The notes under the pieces are model-generated. The model ran no database searches, was not told the origin of the DNA, and saw nothing but the letters and a program-made list of their open reading frames with translations. From positions 1 to 64,000 of the forward strand of contig CACJWG010000001.1 of the NCBI GenBank assembly GCA_902597055.1: a stretch of 64,000 nucleotides of DNA, read 5' to 3'. Each line of letters opens with the position of its first letter. Positions within the stretch are counted from its first letter, which is position 1. Below, one piece after another: positions 5,709-28,386 of this stretch. The position numbers were made by a program, and so were the translations under genes. Origin of the DNA: an uncultured Pelagibacteraceae bacterium. Its GTDB lineage: Bacteria > Pseudomonadota > Alphaproteobacteria > Pelagibacterales > Pelagibacteraceae.

Positions 5709-6506
5709 TTAATTATCTTTCCCCATTATTTCTTCTTCCATGTTCCATATCATAGATAGTATTTCTTCTCGTTTTGATGAAAATTCTTTATTTTTTTTAA
5801 TTTCTCTTAAGTCTTCTTTTAAACCCATCTCTGCAAACGGAAGTTTATATTCTTTATGAATTCTACCTGGCCTTGGTGCCATCACATATAATCTTTCACC
5901 TAATAACAAAGCCTCCTCAACTGAGTGAGTAATTAAGATAATTGTTTTTCCAGTTTCTTTCCAAATTTTTAAAACAAGTGATTGCATTTTTTCTCTAGTT
6001 AAAGCATCTAATGCACCTAAAGGTTCGTCCATTAAAATTAAATCAGGGTCGTTAATTAAACATCTTGCAAGCGCTACTCTTTGCTGCATACCACCAGATA
6101 ATTGATAAGTAGGAGTATTTCCAAAACCTTTTAGACCAACTATTTCTAACCACTCATCAACTTTTTTTTGGGTTTCTCCCGGATCTTTTTTCTTCATTCT
6201 TAATCCAAAGTTGACATTTTCAGAAACAGTTAACCATTCAAACAAAGCACCTTGTTGAAATACCATCCCTCTATCAACTCCAGGACCATTAATTTCATTT
6301 GATCCTAAAGTAATTGTTCCTGATGTAGGTCTAATAAAACCAGCTGCAATATTTAGTAAAGTTGTTTTTCCACATCCTGACGGACCAAGAACTGTTAATA
6401 GTTCTCCTTTTTTGATTGTGAAATTTAAATCTTTTAATGCATGAACAGTTTCTCCTTTTGGAGATTTAAAGATCATATTTAGATTTTGAGAAACTAAATC
6501 ACTCAT
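5709..6506 (-). CDS. tauB: ABC transporter ATP-binding protein, TauB/SsuB-like
   Basis: Walker A GPSGCGKTTLL, signature LSGGMQQRVALARCL, Walker B DLILMDEPLGALD. Confidence 0.93.
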   Translation of the reverse strand: MSDLVSQNLNMIFKSPKGETVHALKDLNFTIKKGELLTVLGPSGCGKTTLLNIAAGFIRPTSGTITLGSNEINGPGVDRGMVFQQGALFEWLTVSENVNFGLRMKKKDPGETQKKVDEWLEIVGLKGFGNTPTYQLSGGMQQRVALARCLINDPDLILMDEPLGALDALTREKMQSLVLKIWKETGKTIILITHSVEEALLLGERLYVMAPRPGRIHKEYKLPFAEMGLKEDLREIKKNKEFSSKREEILSMIWNMEEEIMGKDN

Positions 6507-6532
6507 AACAAGACCTTACATTAAAATTGGTA

Positions 6533-6572
6533 TAAAAAAAATAGGCACCAATTAAAAAAATTGGCGCCTATT
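6533..6572 (-). terminator. Rho-independent terminator-like hairpin between the binding-protein gene and the ATPase gene
   Basis: On the minus strand AATAGGCGCCAATT / AATTGGTGCCTATT (14 bp, one G-U) around a 5-nt loop, followed by a run of T. Confidence 0.8.
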
Positions 6573-6591
6573 TAAATATTTAACCTTATGA

Positions 6592-7533
6592 TTATAAAGG
6601 TAAGAAACTAGTGTCTACGTTTCCTCTAGGTGTTCCCATTCCTTTTAAGAATGCATCTAGATTTCCTTTAGTCATAGATTGCTTAGTCTCTGCTGGTGTT
6701 AAAAATTTGAAACCACTTAAAGTTTCTTTCATATCACCAACTTTCATTTCAGAAGCTTTAGACATTGCGTTCATGTCGCTTTTGCCAGCTCTGTATCTGT
6801 CATTAGCTTCATGAGTTACTTCAATAAAAGTTCTTAGCATTTCAGGATTTTCCTTCATGAACTTAGTAGTTACTGAAGTAATATCAATTCCTAAGATACC
6901 AGCGTCTCTTGCTTCTTGAACTGTAAGTAATCTTGTTCCAACAGCTGTTGCAGCTTTAATTGAATTACCACCAAATAAACATGCCATTACAACATCGCCG
7001 CTTACTAATGCAGCAGCACCTTCTTCAGGGTCCATTTGAATGATATCCATTTTTTTTCTATCTGCGCCAACAACTTTCATACTTTCATCAAAAACGTATT
7101 CAGCCATTGTTCCTAGTGGTACAGCAACTTTTTTACCTTCAAGTTCAGTAGCATTAGCTTTTGTAATACCTGAAGCATTTGAAGTTACACAAGTTGTTCC
7201 TCCCATTCCATATTCCATAGCTATATCTACAAGCTTGATAGGTGCTTTAGATTTAACTGCGTTTATGAAAGGTACTAAACCTTGTGAGTAAGAAATATCG
7301 ATATCTCCCGCTAACATAGCGTCAGTCATTGCTCCACCGTTTGTGAAGTTAGTCCACTTAACTGGTACACCTAAAGCTTTAGCAAAATTTTTCTTTTGCA
7401 TGTCCTCTAGGTTTGGACTAGGCCATTCTAAGAAGTAAGCAACTCTTACTTCTTTTGCAGCTGAATTAGCAACTGAAATAGTTAAGTTAAGAGCTAAGAT
7501 ACTTCCAAGAATAAAACTTAGTATTTTTCTCAT
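6592..7533 (-). CDS. tauA: ABC transporter substrate-binding protein, TauA/SsuA-like (candidate taurine binder)
   Basis: 313 aa with signal peptide; VRVAYFLEWPSPNLE, DAMLAGDIDISYSQGLVPFI, followed by tauB/tauC-like genes. Confidence 0.88.
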   Translation of the reverse strand: MRKILSFILGSILALNLTISVANSAAKEVRVAYFLEWPSPNLEDMQKKNFAKALGVPVKWTNFTNGGAMTDAMLAGDIDISYSQGLVPFINAVKSKAPIKLVDIAMEYGMGGTTCVTSNASGITKANATELEGKKVAVPLGTMAEYVFDESMKVVGADRKKMDIIQMDPEEGAAALVSGDVVMACLFGGNSIKAATAVGTRLLTVQEARDAGILGIDITSVTTKFMKENPEMLRTFIEVTHEANDRYRAGKSDMNAMSKASEMKVGDMKETLSGFKFLTPAETKQSMTKGNLDAFLKGMGTPRGNVDTSFLPL

Positions 7534-7621
7534 TTATTCCTCTCCTTATTTAAATTTATAAGCGGTATTTAAGTTGAAAATAGAACCAATGTAAATGAAG
7601 TTGTTAACAGGAATGGGTGTC

Positions 7622-7659
7622 AAAATTGACTATTCAATTTTTGGTTGTGCTGCTATAAT
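7622..7659 (+). promoter_or_regulatory. Candidate promoter with overlapping operator for the aminotransferase gene
   Basis: Inverted repeat AAAATTGA-CTAT-TCAATTTT (7622-7641) directly upstream of an extended -10 TGCTATAAT (7651-7659) in the divergent intergenic region. Confidence 0.45.
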
Positions 7660-7712
7660 AGATTTTTATAGTTAATTAATATTAATTAGTCTAAAGATTA
7701 GGAATAAAAAAA

Positions 7713-9053
7713 ATGAGTCAAAAACCTTCTATACCAAATTCGCTTAATGAACATTGGATGCCATTTACATCCAATAAAGACTTTAAAGAAAGACCAAGAT
7801 TAATTACAGAAGCTAAAGGGGTTTATTTAAAAAATCATGAAGGTAATACTCAAATAGATGCAAGCTCAGGATTATTCTGTAATCCTCTTGGTCATGGAAG
7901 ACAAGAAATTATAGATGCAATATCAAATCAATTAAAAACTTTAGACTATGCTCAACCGTTCCAACAAGGTTTTGGTGGATCGTTTGAATTAGCAACAAGA
8001 ATTTCAAAACATACACCAGGAAATTTAAATAGAATTTTTTATACAATATGTGGATCGACTGCAGTTGAAACAGCAATCAAAATTGCAATCGCTTATCATA
8101 AAGCAAGAGGCGAAGGACATAGATTTAGATTTGTTGGAAGAGAAAGAGCTTACCACGGAATGAATATTGGTGCCACTTCAGTTGGTGGAATGATTAACAA
8201 CGTAAAAACTTTTGCAAGTGTATTGATGCCAGGCGTAGTACATATGAGACATACTCATTTACCAGAACACAAATTTGTTTCTGGACAACCAGATACTGGT
8301 GCAAATAGAGCAGAGGATTTAGAAAGAATTTGTACAAACTTTGGTGCAGAAAATATTGCAGCTTGTATTGTTGAACCAATTGCTGGTTCAACTGGAACAT
8401 TAGTGCCTCCAAAAGGATATTTACAAAAACTTAGAGAGATTTGTGACAAACACGGAATACTTTTAATATTTGATGAAGTTATAACTGGATGGGGAAGAAC
8501 TGGTTCTGCTTTTGGTGCACAAGAGTTTGGTGTTACTCCAGATATAATGACAATGGCAAAAGCTACAACAAATGGAATTGTTCCAATGGGTGTTGTTGCA
8601 AGTAAAGAAGAAATTTATGACACGATAATGGATGCATCTCCAAAAGGAACAATTGAATTATTTCATGGTTATACTTATTCAGGTATTCCAATTTCAGTTG
8701 CAGCTGCATTAGCAGTACAAGATATTTTTGAAAAAGAAGATATTTTTAAAAGAGTAAAAGAATTAGCACCGTACTTCCAAGAAGGTTTGATGTCTTTAAA
8801 AGATTTAGAGGCAGTAGAAAATATAAGAGGTTACGGAATGATGGGTGGAATTGATATGAAGATGGATCAAAAACCTGGAAGGGCAGGTTTAACAACCTTC
8901 AAACATTGTTATGATGCTGGTGTAAATTTTAAAGCTACAGGCGACTGTTTAATTATTGCACCAATGTTTATATCTGAAAAAAAACATATTGATGAAATAA
9001 TTGAAAAATTAAGAACTGGTATTAGCAATTATTCTAAAAGTAAGAAAAATTAA
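7713..9053 (+). CDS. Class III aminotransferase, omega-amino acid/taurine:pyruvate type
   Basis: 446 aa; NEHWMPFTSNKDFKERPRLI, ASSGLFCNPLGHGR, LLIFDEVITGWGRTGSAFGAQ; gene is divergent from the taurine-type transporter. Confidence 0.87.
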   Translation: MSQKPSIPNSLNEHWMPFTSNKDFKERPRLITEAKGVYLKNHEGNTQIDASSGLFCNPLGHGRQEIIDAISNQLKTLDYAQPFQQGFGGSFELATRISKHTPGNLNRIFYTICGSTAVETAIKIAIAYHKARGEGHRFRFVGRERAYHGMNIGATSVGGMINNVKTFASVLMPGVVHMRHTHLPEHKFVSGQPDTGANRAEDLERICTNFGAENIAACIVEPIAGSTGTLVPPKGYLQKLREICDKHGILLIFDEVITGWGRTGSAFGAQEFGVTPDIMTMAKATTNGIVPMGVVASKEEIYDTIMDASPKGTIELFHGYTYSGIPISVAAALAVQDIFEKEDIFKRVKELAPYFQEGLMSLKDLEAVENIRGYGMMGGIDMKMDQKPGRAGLTTFKHCYDAGVNFKATGDCLIIAPMFISEKKHIDEIIEKLRTGISNYSKSKKN

Positions 9054-23694: not shown

Positions 23695-24453
23695 ATGATC
23701 AACGATCAGCACTATAAAATTGCAGATAAAGAAATCTCTTTATTAAGCTTAAATTTTAAAGAAGGAGAAAAAATTAAGGATGAGTCAATCGTTGAAATTT
23801 TAGCGCAATCCAGAAAAATCATAAAAAAATATTTCACAAATAAGTTATTTTTAAAAACAGACCAGATACCAAGAGGTGGTAAAGAATATTTAAATTGTGA
23901 TCGTGCTTTTGATATTTTTGCAAATCATAAGGTGATGCCAGAGTATTGTTTTAGTTGTTACAAAGTTCAAATAAATCCAAAAAATGTTATAGACTTAATA
24001 AAGTTATTTTTTTTGTTCGATATAATGAATTTTGAAAATGAAAACTTAAGGAAAAGTTTTATTGATTTTAGAGAAGATGAAAAAAACTATAAAGGAATTA
24101 TTTATTGCACTACCTTAGAAGAGGCTAAGAAAATTAATTATAATGTTAGTAAATATTTAAAAGTTAACCTTGATGAGGGTATACAATCCCATGTGAAAAG
24201 AGGATGCAAAGAATTTGCAGAAAAACACCCTGAGTTTTTAAATTTAGAAAAAGATGTCATGAGATATAAAAAAGAATGGAAAAAAATTGAGAATGAATTT
24301 GATGCAAATAGTCAAAAAATTTACAAATCTGGTGAGAGAAAATTAGTTTACGGTCTTAGTTTAAAGGATGTATTAATATTTCAAAATTGGATTGATTTTG
24401 CAAAAATAGAAGGCGATGAGAGTTACAAAGTTTTAACTGAATTCTATGAGTAA
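23695..24453 (+). CDS. Hypothetical protein linked to MTA salvage genes
   Basis: 252 aa ORF overlapping mtnP by 8 bp; contains EYCFSCYKVQI; I do not recognise a family. Confidence 0.6.
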   Translation: MINDQHYKIADKEISLLSLNFKEGEKIKDESIVEILAQSRKIIKKYFTNKLFLKTDQIPRGGKEYLNCDRAFDIFANHKVMPEYCFSCYKVQINPKNVIDLIKLFFLFDIMNFENENLRKSFIDFREDEKNYKGIIYCTTLEEAKKINYNVSKYLKVNLDEGIQSHVKRGCKEFAEKHPEFLNLEKDVMRYKKEWKKIENEFDANSQKIYKSGERKLVYGLSLKDVLIFQNWIDFAKIEGDESYKVLTEFYE

Positions 24454-25315
24454 CAAATTAGCTATAATTGGAGGAAGTGGGCTATATGATGTTGAGGAAT
24501 TTAAGGATAGAGAGCTAATTGATTTAAATACACCATGGGGGAAACCTTCAGATAAAATTTTAAAGACTAATTTTCTTAAAAAAGAAGTCTTTTTCCTTCC
24601 TCGACATGGAAGAGGTCATTATATCAATCCATCAAATATAAATTTTAGAGCTAACATTGATGCGTTAAAGCAATTAGGTGTTTCCGACATAGTTTCTGTA
24701 TCAGCTGTCGGATCTTTAAAAGAAGACTTGCCACCAGGTAAATTTGTGATCGTTGATCAATTCATAGATAGAACTTTTGCAAGAAACAAAACTTTTTTTG
24801 ATGAGGAAATTGTTGCCCATGTTTCTATGGCTCATCCAACATCAAATGGTTTAATGAATGCGTGTGAAGAAGCTATTAAGAAAGAAAAAATAGAATATCA
24901 GAGAGGTGGAACTTATGTAGTAATGGAAGGGCCACAATTTTCAACTTTAGCTGAATCCAATCTTTATAGATCGTGGAAAGCTGATGTGATTGGTATGACA
25001 AATATGCCAGAAGCTAAATTGGCGAGAGAAGCAGAAATTAGGTATGCATCTGTTTCAATGGTAACAGATTATGATTGTTGGCATCCAGATCATGAAAATG
25101 TAGATGTGCAACAAGTAATAAAAGTTCTTTTAGGAAATGCTGCAAAGGCAAAGAGCATGATCAAAAATCTTATAGAAAATTTTGAAAAACATCTTGACCC
25201 TAAGGATCCAACTAATAATTGTTTAGATGTGGCTATAATTACAGCACCAGAAAAAAGAACCCAAAAAACAAAAGATAAACTAAAAACAGTTGCAGGTAGA
25301 GTTTTAGGTAAATGA
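24446..25315 (+). CDS. mtnP: S-methyl-5'-thioadenosine phosphorylase
   Basis: LAIIGGSGLYDVEEF, LPRHGRGHYINPSNINFRANIDALKQLGV, YVVMEGPQFSTLAESNLYRSW. Confidence 0.96.
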   Translation: MSNKLAIIGGSGLYDVEEFKDRELIDLNTPWGKPSDKILKTNFLKKEVFFLPRHGRGHYINPSNINFRANIDALKQLGVSDIVSVSAVGSLKEDLPPGKFVIVDQFIDRTFARNKTFFDEEIVAHVSMAHPTSNGLMNACEEAIKKEKIEYQRGGTYVVMEGPQFSTLAESNLYRSWKADVIGMTNMPEAKLAREAEIRYASVSMVTDYDCWHPDHENVDVQQVIKVLLGNAAKAKSMIKNLIENFEKHLDPKDPTNNCLDVAIITAPEKRTQKTKDKLKTVAGRVLGK

Positions 25316-26382
25316 AAATTGGAGGCAAAGAATACCGAACTATTTGGTTTGAGAATGAAGTTGTAAAAATAATTGATCAAACAAAACTTCCGCATCAATT
25401 TGTGATTAAGGAACTAAAAACAGTCAAAGAAGCAATTAATGCAATAAAAAAAATGGAAGTAAGAGGCGCCCCTTTAATAGGTGCAACAGCCGCATACGGA
25501 TTAGTATTAGCAATATTGGAAAATAATGACCAATCTTTTTTAAAAAAATCGGCTGAGGATTTAGTAAAATCAAGACCTACTGCAATTAATTTAAAATGGG
25601 CAGTAGATAGAATGATGGTCAAACTTTCAGGGATAAATTCTGAAAAAATTTTAGATGTTGCATTAGACGAAGCAAAAGAAATTTGTGAAGAAGATATTAA
25701 GTTTTGTGAAAGTATTGGTTTAAATGGACTTAAGATTATTGAGGAAATCTATAATAAAAAAAAAGATACAGTAAATATTTTAACTCATTGCAATGCTGGT
25801 TGGCTTGCAACAATTAATTGGGGCACTGCCACATCGCCAATTTATCACGCACATAAAAAAGGTATTCCCGTTCATGTTTGGGCAGATGAAACTAGGCCCA
25901 GAAACCAAGGTGCAAATTTAACTTCATATGAATTAAATGAGGAAGGTATCAAAAATACAATTATTACTGATAACACCGGTGGAATTTTAATGCAAAGAAA
26001 ACAAGTTGATATGTGTATTGTTGGAACTGATCGTACGTTATCTAATGGCGATGTATGCAATAAAGTAGGGACTTATTTAAAAGCTTTAGCTGCAAAAGAC
26101 AACAATGTACCTTTTTATGTGGCATTACCGAGCTCAACTATTGATTGGAATATTAAGAATTCCAAAGATATTCCAATTGAGGAAAGAAGTTCAGAAGAGT
26201 TGTCAAAAATTGAAGGTATCGACGAAGACGGTAAAGTAAAAAAAGTTCAGATATATCCAAATAATAGTAAGGCTATGAATTTAGCATTTGATGTTACTCC
26301 AGCAAAATATATAACTGGTTTGATAACAGAAAAAGGTATTTGCGAAGCGTCAGAAAAAGGATTAAAAAATTTATTTAAATGA
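25312..26382 (+). CDS. mtnA: S-methyl-5-thioribose-1-phosphate isomerase
   Basis: VRGAPLIGATAAYG, ILTHCNAGWLATINWGTA, VWADETRPRNQGANLTSYEL, VGTDRTLSNGDVCNKVGTY. Confidence 0.97.
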   Translation: MKIGGKEYRTIWFENEVVKIIDQTKLPHQFVIKELKTVKEAINAIKKMEVRGAPLIGATAAYGLVLAILENNDQSFLKKSAEDLVKSRPTAINLKWAVDRMMVKLSGINSEKILDVALDEAKEICEEDIKFCESIGLNGLKIIEEIYNKKKDTVNILTHCNAGWLATINWGTATSPIYHAHKKGIPVHVWADETRPRNQGANLTSYELNEEGIKNTIITDNTGGILMQRKQVDMCIVGTDRTLSNGDVCNKVGTYLKALAAKDNNVPFYVALPSSTIDWNIKNSKDIPIEERSSEELSKIEGIDEDGKVKKVQIYPNNSKAMNLAFDVTPAKYITGLITEKGICEASEKGLKNLFK

Positions 26383-26702
26383 ACCCACTTATTTTATCAC
26401 TTGTTTGTCTTTTATTAGTTGGAGTTTCGGCTAATTGGCTAAGTATTGTTAAGAATAATAAGACATTAATTTATCTTTCTTTAGCACCATGTATTTATAT
26501 AGCAATTTATGGAATTTATTTAGTTATTGGACCTGTTGATTTGTATGAAGACGGTTCAAAAAACTTTTTTATGCAGAACCCTTATGAAAGTGAGCTTCCA
26601 CCACAGTTTTTATTACTAAAGCTTTATCAGTATATTCTAATAGGCGTAGGTCTAATTTTTGGGTATTTATTTTTAAAATATTTAAAAAATTATGGACGTT
26701 AA
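26379..26702 (+). CDS. Small membrane protein of unknown function
   Basis: 107 aa with about 3 TM segments; overlaps mtnA by 4 bp and the aldolase by 11 bp. Confidence 0.6.
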   Translation: MNPLILSLVCLLLVGVSANWLSIVKNNKTLIYLSLAPCIYIAIYGIYLVIGPVDLYEDGSKNFFMQNPYESELPPQFLLLKLYQYILIGVGLIFGYLFLKYLKNYGR

Positions 26703-27339
26703 GAGTAGAGAAGAAATAATAAAATTTGCTCAGAAACTAAATAGCACAAATTTATCTCCGTTAAGATCAGGAAATATTTCACTTAAAGCTCAGAATAATA
26801 ATGAAAAGGGGTTTTTAATTACTCCATCAGGCAAGAAATACGACAGTTTAAAAGCTGACGATATCGTATTTGTATCTTTAGAAGGGAAATATGATGAAAA
26901 AGGTTTGCAACCCTCATCTGAGTGGAGATTTCATAAAGATATTTACTTAAACAAAACTGACGCGAAAGCCGTTGTTCATGCTCATTCACCACACGCAACA
27001 GCTGTATCTGCACACAATAAAGACATTCCAGCTTTTCATTACATGATAGCGTTAGCTGGAGGAGACAATATAAAGTGTGCAAAGTATGCAACTTTTGGAA
27101 CACAAGAATTATCTGACAATATTATTGAAGCATTAGAAAATAGAAAAGCATGCTTGATGTCTAATCACGGTCAAGTTGCTTATGGGGATAACTTGAACTC
27201 AGCTTTCGAACTTGCAGAAGAAGTTGAAAATATTTGCCATCAATACATAAATGCAATAAAGTTAGGAGAGCCTAAGATTCTTTCATCAAGTGAGATGGAT
27301 GTAATATTAGAAAAAGTTAAAAACTATAAAAAAGGATAA
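26692..27339 (+). CDS. Class II aldolase/adducin family protein (candidate methylthioribulose-1-phosphate aldolase or dehydratase)
   Basis: RSGNISLKAQ, GFLITPSGKKYDSL, PSSEWRFHKDIYL, AVVHAHSPHATAVSA. Confidence 0.85.
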   Translation: MDVKSREEIIKFAQKLNSTNLSPLRSGNISLKAQNNNEKGFLITPSGKKYDSLKADDIVFVSLEGKYDEKGLQPSSEWRFHKDIYLNKTDAKAVVHAHSPHATAVSAHNKDIPAFHYMIALAGGDNIKCAKYATFGTQELSDNIIEALENRKACLMSNHGQVAYGDNLNSAFELAEEVENICHQYINAIKLGEPKILSSSEMDVILEKVKNYKKG

Positions 27340-27345
27340 CTTTTT

Positions 27346-28386
27346 ATGACGAAGGTTGGGGAGCACGTCACTTTAGATATCATAGGTACTGAAAAAGAGT
27401 ACGAACCAAAATTCTTTGAAAAACTAGTCTACAAGATATCAAAGAAGGCAAAGGTAACTGTTCTAGAGATTTCAAAGTATAAATTTGAGCCACAAGGCTT
27501 CACTCTTGTAGCTTTATTAGCAGAAAGTCATATCAGCTTTCATACTTTCCCAGAAAGAGGAATTATAAGTTTTGATTTTTTTACGTGCGGAAAAGTAAAT
27601 CCCAATGTTGCCTACGATATTTTAAAAAAAGAGATTAAGCATAAAAGAATTGTAAAAAAAGAATTCAATAGAGATACAATAAGTTATTATGATGATATTT
27701 ATAGCTCACCAGGTTTAAAAAAATATTATATGGTAAAAGATGTTTTAGAAAACTTCACTTCAAAAGTAGGTCAAAACATTGAAATTTTAGATTTAGAACA
27801 GTTTGGTAAATCTCTTTTTATAGACGGTGAACTTCAAGTAGCGGAAAACGATGAACATTTGTATAGCTCTACATTTGTAAACTCTGGTTTAAAACTTAAT
27901 CCATCAAATGATAAAACTGCAATTATTGGTGGAGGGGACGGAGGGGTTGCAAGAGAATGTATCTCTAAAGGTTTTAAATTAATTGATTGGTATGAGTTAG
28001 ATCCTGAAGTTGTGACAATGTGTGAAAAATATTTATCTAAGGTAGGCAAGAAAGCGACCACAAAAAATCATGTGCAATGTGTATGGGGAGATGCATTTGA
28101 AAGTATTAAATCAGTTGAAGATAATAAGTATGATAAAATTTATGTGGACTTAAACGATGATCAGTATTGTATTGATTTGGCCGCAAAAAATATCAAATCT
28201 TTAAAAAGAATTCTTAAGCCAAATGGAACAATAACTGCACAGGTTGGAAGCCAAGATAAAAAACCTAAACAAGTTGATAAATGGTTAAATCTTTTTGAAA
28301 AAAGTTTTGGCAATACTTCATTAGATAGAGTTTATATCCCAAGCTTTGATTGTTCTTGGAATTTTGCATCTTCTCTAAATAAATAA
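27346..28386 (+). CDS. Bifunctional S-adenosylmethionine decarboxylase - aminopropyltransferase fusion
   Basis: N-terminal class 1 AdoMetDC with processing site AESHISFHTFPERGIISFDFFTCG; C-terminal aminopropyltransferase with AIIGGGDGGVARE, WYELDPEVV. Confidence 0.92.
   Translation: MTKVGEHVTLDIIGTEKEYEPKFFEKLVYKISKKAKVTVLEISKYKFEPQGFTLVALLAESHISFHTFPERGIISFDFFTCGKVNPNVAYDILKKEIKHKRIVKKEFNRDTISYYDDIYSSPGLKKYYMVKDVLENFTSKVGQNIEILDLEQFGKSLFIDGELQVAENDEHLYSSTFVNSGLKLNPSNDKTAIIGGGDGGVARECISKGFKLIDWYELDPEVVTMCEKYLSKVGKKATTKNHVQCVWGDAFESIKSVEDNKYDKIYVDLNDDQYCIDLAAKNIKSLKRILKPNGTITAQVGSQDKKPKQVDKWLNLFEKSFGNTSLDRVYIPSFDCSWNFASSLNK

Follow-up and report, generated by a model that had tools for sequence, protein, structure and literature searches.

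Here, we analyzed a window of 64,000 nucleotides from an uncultured Pelagibacteraceae (SAR11) genome. Five genes are arranged head to tail between positions 24446 and 28386, in the order mtnP, mtnA, a small hydrophobic protein, a class II aldolase and a fused speD-speE gene (Table 1). The spacings from mtnP to the fusion are -3, -3, -10 and +6 bp, and we infer that the cluster is transcribed as an operon. The aldolase gene is located directly upstream of the fusion in 71 of the 79 SAR11 loci with enough upstream sequence, while the counts for mtnA and mtnP in Table 1 are based on the 68 loci with 5.4 kb upstream. The cluster is also kept in another genus, where the identity of the fusion is 61%. 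A 252-aa ORF at 23695-24453, without a Pfam or NCBIfam match, overlaps the start of mtnP; it is variably present, and its identity is 72-97% between SAR11 genomes that otherwise resemble each other closely. In the riboswitch search the only Rfam match in the window was a tRNA, and the promoter and terminator scan was uninformative, giving fewer matches than in shuffled sequence.

Table 1. Genes of the cluster and domains of the fusion protein in the window
Feature	Position	Strand	Evidence and remarks
mtnP, methylthioadenosine phosphorylase	24446..25315	+	PRK08931 and TIGR01694 over cut-off; upstream of the fusion in 64/68 loci
mtnA, methylthioribose-1-phosphate isomerase	25312..26382	+	TIGR00512 and PRK05720 over cut-off; upstream of the fusion in 67/68 loci
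Small hydrophobic protein, 107 aa	26379..26702	+	No family match; overlaps its cluster neighbours; missing from some SAR11 loci
Class II (FucA-like) aldolase, probable methylthioribulose-1-phosphate aldolase (Ald2-like)	26692..27339	+	6 bp upstream of the fusion
Bifunctional AdoMet decarboxylase-aminopropyltransferase (speD-speE fusion), 346 aa	27346..28386	+	ORF, Pfam, family models
Class 1b AdoMet decarboxylase domain, about residues 1-112	27346..27681	+	PF02675, TIGR03330; S61, H66 and C81 invariant
Aminopropyltransferase domain, residues 119-346	27700..28383	+	PF17284 and PF01564; GGGDGG 195-200, E217, D268-x-x-D271

The earlier note had read the last gene as one 346-aa ORF joining a class 1 AdoMet decarboxylase (AdoMetDC) to an aminopropyltransferase, and the ORF, the Pfam layout and TIGR03330 all agree with this reading. 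The Pfam domains are AdoMet_dc at residues 7-109 (8e-27), Spermine_synt_N, the tetramerisation domain, at 119-167, and Spermine_synth at 170-338. The N-terminal half scored over the curated cut-off of TIGR03330, the model of the B. subtilis-type (class 1b) AdoMetDC. The C-terminal half matched polyamine aminopropyltransferase models, all well under their cut-offs, indicating that the transferase half is divergent. The catalytic Ser, His and Cys of class 1b enzymes are all present in the window protein, and S61, H66 and C81 are invariant among the 81 SAR11 proteins as well as in a wider alignment of fusions. Class 1b AdoMetDC is cleaved between Glu and Ser, which by homology would be E60 and S61 here, with S61 as the pyruvoyl serine. 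Self-cleavage of the window proenzyme should occur between these two residues, as predicted from the sequence; the site proposed in the earlier note, between AESH and ISFHTFPE, is placed two residues off.

In the transferase half, the Gly-rich AdoMet site GGGDGG and the D-x-x-D motif are both present. The DSSDP-type motif was previously considered lost, but it corresponds to D268-L-N-D271-D, and both Asp residues are kept and invariant among the 81 SAR11 proteins. In the alignment, D-L-x-D is also found in thermospermine synthase (DLADP) and in the Pyrobaculum enzyme (DLTDP), while human spermine synthase (SMS) reads DLTA and has no second Asp. The stretch NIEILDLEQFG, which had been taken as SMS-like, falls in a region common to all aligned aminopropyltransferases and is not specific to SMS. 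Bacterial spermine synthases are described as having an Asp in motif 2, a Gly two residues on and a Glu in motif 3 (PMC11107197); the window protein has D198, G200 and E217 at these positions of the alignment, and all three are invariant in the SAR11 set.

The fusion was found in all 80 SAR11 loci retrieved, with both domains in one ORF and 76-100% identity to the window protein, indicating that it is not a chance joining. The best named matches, 99-100% identical over the full length, came from Pelagibacteraceae single-cell genomes and Ca. Pelagibacter ubique SCGC AAA795-M22. Among the 147 genomes of the order searched, 84 Pelagibacteraceae genomes had an AdoMet_dc match, each exactly one. 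Nearly all of these frames are 346-384 aa long; the few shorter ones (121, 181, 221 and 308 aa) are most likely cut by contig ends. Within Pelagibacteraceae the fusion is thus a nearly universal core gene whose catalytic residues are invariant, and it is ordinary for the lineage. In a sister family of the same order the AdoMetDC homolog is distant and unfused (about 130 aa), and the two loci read have no adjoining aminopropyltransferase; this protein may be a repurposed decarboxylase. Other AdoMetDC-aminopropyltransferase fusions are scattered across unrelated proteobacterial families and are mostly longer (371-477 aa), and one of them is broken by in-frame stops. A viral origin of the fusion was considered and rejected: phage matches were only to the AdoMetDC or the transferase half, separate and weak, and no relative of the fusion appeared in the viral contigs searched. 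The plasmid search gave only distant homologs, separate or fused.

Two fused genes of this lineage, from Ca. Pelagibacter ubique HTCC1062 (WP_011282223) and Ca. Pelagibacter sp. HTCC7211 (WP_008544956), have been expressed previously (PMC11107197). Both proteins decarboxylate AdoMet and brought spermidine back in E. coli lacking speD; in speE and speG deletion strains both yielded comparable amounts of spermine and thermospermine, as measured by LC-MS/MS, and norspermidine was also made from diaminopropane (PMC11107197). The window protein shares with them the lineage, the single-copy gene, the domain order and the combination of a class 1b AdoMetDC with an aminopropyltransferase. Its single copy and its lineage make it their putative ortholog, and by analogy it would make the same products, which in E. 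coli may differ from those inside SAR11 cells. The product range beyond spermidine that the earlier note suggested is therefore already published for SAR11 relatives, and bacterial fusions of this kind are likewise in print, as it had said (PMC11107197, PMC12803844).

We consider it very probable that the window gene is the known SAR11 SpeD-SpeE, which makes spermidine and then spermine and thermospermine, with its methylthioadenosine probably recycled by the upstream cluster. The proenzyme would cleave itself to form the pyruvoyl cofactor, at which the N-terminal half would decarboxylate AdoMet. The C-terminal half would then take the aminopropyl group of decarboxylated AdoMet and add it to putrescine, giving spermidine, and would aminopropylate spermidine in turn to spermine and thermospermine, each transfer releasing methylthioadenosine. 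Putrescine could be supplied by an Orn/Arg-family PLP-dependent decarboxylase and two arginase/agmatinase-family proteins encoded in the genome, judging by their families. MtnP would split methylthioadenosine into adenine and methylthioribose-1-phosphate, MtnA would convert the latter to the ribulose-1-phosphate form, and the class II aldolase would cleave methylthioribulose-1-phosphate to DHAP and methylthioacetaldehyde. The cluster from mtnP to the fusion, read in this way from its gene families, is probably a DHAP-shunt-type route for methylthioadenosine. The MtnP/MtnA/Ald2 form of the DHAP shunt is known from Rhodospirillum rubrum and Rhodopseudomonas palustris (PMC10986504, PMC6302742). 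Like it, the SAR11 cluster holds mtnP, mtnA and a class II aldolase gene; it differs in its linkage to a polyamine gene, in an aldolase whose identity is deduced from family models, and in the aldolase-dehydrogenase that some SAR11 have instead of the aldolase.

The latter is a 677-aa bifunctional class II aldolase/short-chain dehydrogenase, over the cut-off for NF006192, which is present in all eight loci lacking the FucA-like aldolase. There it lies at the aldolase's site on the opposite strand (about 5865-7927 of these loci, minus strand), and it was absent from the window and from the other SAR11 loci compared. Full-length copies were found in 7 of the 61 genomes of the genus. It looks like one aldolase was replaced by another at the same site.

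Two of these functional assignments have competitors. The transferase could be an ordinary spermidine synthase joined to AdoMetDC, with spermidine as its sole product in the cell. It retains the D-x-x-D pair found in spermidine synthases, and SAR11 SpeE has been discussed mainly with spermidine and norspermidine (PMC8437039). However, the spermine and thermospermine made by two SAR11 fusions and the spermine synthase motif residues of the window protein speak against this reading, which we regard as quite unlikely. PMC8437039, which credits Green et al. (2011) with a previous description of the SAR11 fusion, also proposes a reverse reaction of the enzyme in HTCC7211; the net reaction in the cell may go either way. 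For the neighbouring gene, a divergent MtnB dehydratase would turn the cluster into the start of an oxygen-dependent methionine salvage pathway. MtnB and the aldolase fall in one superfamily, and the MtnB model TIGR03328 matched the aldolase at 2e-21, but with 76 bits against a cut-off of 137, far under the 207 bits of the L-fuculose-phosphate aldolase models, which ranked highest. The best PDB match was FucA (1e-51). As the FucA-model scores were also all under cut-off, the substrate of the aldolase is a deduction. Acireductone dioxygenase (MtnD), in turn, was over cut-off in none of 60 family genomes, with two sub-threshold matches, and the eight loci lacking the aldolase have a bifunctional aldolase/dehydrogenase at the same place. 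These results make the MtnB reading unlikely and favor the DHAP-shunt-type route.

The third alternative concerns ancestry, namely that the SAR11 fusion is the bacterial source lineage of animal SMS or its sister. Animal SMS is known to derive from a bacterial AdoMetDC-spermine synthase fusion (PMC12803844), and human SMS has an AdoMetDC-like fold before its aminopropyltransferase, as does the window protein. When a structure model of the window protein, of moderate confidence (mean pLDDT 67, pTM 0.53), was searched against the PDB, the top fold match was human SMS (3c6k), over both halves, with an E-value of 2e-21 and a TM-score of about 0.44, against 1e-15 for the first spermidine synthase. 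This supports, at the level of a model, an architecture common to the fusion and human SMS; the top rank is nevertheless expected, because both have the two-domain layout. The sequences gave a different picture. With human SMS as the query (its sequence matches PDB 3c6k over 364 residues), about 20 aminopropyltransferases of the panel outscored every SAR11 protein and 30 outscored the window protein. No match between the SMS N-domain and AdoMetDC was obtained by phmmer, and profile comparison by hhalign aligned 33 columns at 19% probability, which is no usable similarity, so that no N-domain sequence tree with SMS could be built. The window protein keeps the AdoMetDC residues S61, H66 and C81, in contrast to the inactive N-domain of the animal SMS lineage, and the sequences showed no kinship of the two proteins beyond the superfamily level.

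A 60-row maximum likelihood tree of the transferase domain, which holds one animal sequence and some partial PDB rows taken from printed alignments, grouped the SAR11 proteins as a single starred clade, whose branch measures 5.5 changes per site, apart from SMS with its branch of 4.9. Constraining SAR11 and SMS to one clade was not rejected (AU p 0.44), with long branches and a single animal sequence behind this value. A clade joining SAR11 to thermospermine synthase and the Pyrobaculum enzyme was not supported either, and its constraint was also not rejected (p 0.25). In addition, a search starting from the animal side chose a deltaproteobacterial (MBW2649524) and a Krumholzibacteria (MCK4773364) fusion, both of which were tested (PMC12803844). 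These are bifunctional like the SAR11 fusions, with an active AdoMetDC and a tetraamine synthase, but by the published descriptions they are strongly spermine-selective, whereas the SAR11 fusions tested made spermine and thermospermine about equally. Given these results, we find it highly improbable that the SAR11 fusion is the source or sister of animal SMS. The suggestion that it may be a bacterial relative of the animal architecture holds for such fusions as a group, as published; a special closeness of the SAR11 protein to SMS is not supported. A single origin of all AdoMetDC-aminopropyltransferase fusions was also rejected by the constrained tree (AU p 5e-5), showing that such fusions arose, or were rearranged, more than once.

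Overall, the proposal from which this analysis started is essentially published, since the fusion, its products and the origin of animal SMS from a bacterial fusion are known; its evolutionary part is sound in outline, but is in print and is not specific to SAR11. What the sequence adds is the core-gene status of the fusion, the repeated origin of such fusions and the company of methylthioadenosine-recycling genes. The less-noted part is the conserved cluster with probable recycling enzymes for a sulfur-containing by-product. We see an even chance that the SAR11 polyamine enzyme shares an operon with an oxygen-independent pathway of the DHAP-shunt type for disposing of methylthioadenosine, in which DHAP is returned, methylthio-aldehyde is released with volatile sulfur as a possible consequence, and some SAR11 use a swapped-in aldolase-dehydrogenase. 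A limited literature search found no publication on such a coupling in SAR11. If it exists, polyamine synthesis would feed carbon back as DHAP and release methylthio-aldehyde, a possible extra source of oceanic volatile organic sulfur, and the aldolase-dehydrogenase of some SAR11 could catalyze the following redox step as well. A step in carbon and sulfur routing would then be tied to polyamine synthesis in a marine lineage of very high abundance.

Among the closest relatives, the fusion protein shows 99-100% identity, as against about 88-99% for mtnP and mtnA upstream, which points to either tighter constraint on the fusion or its recent exchange.
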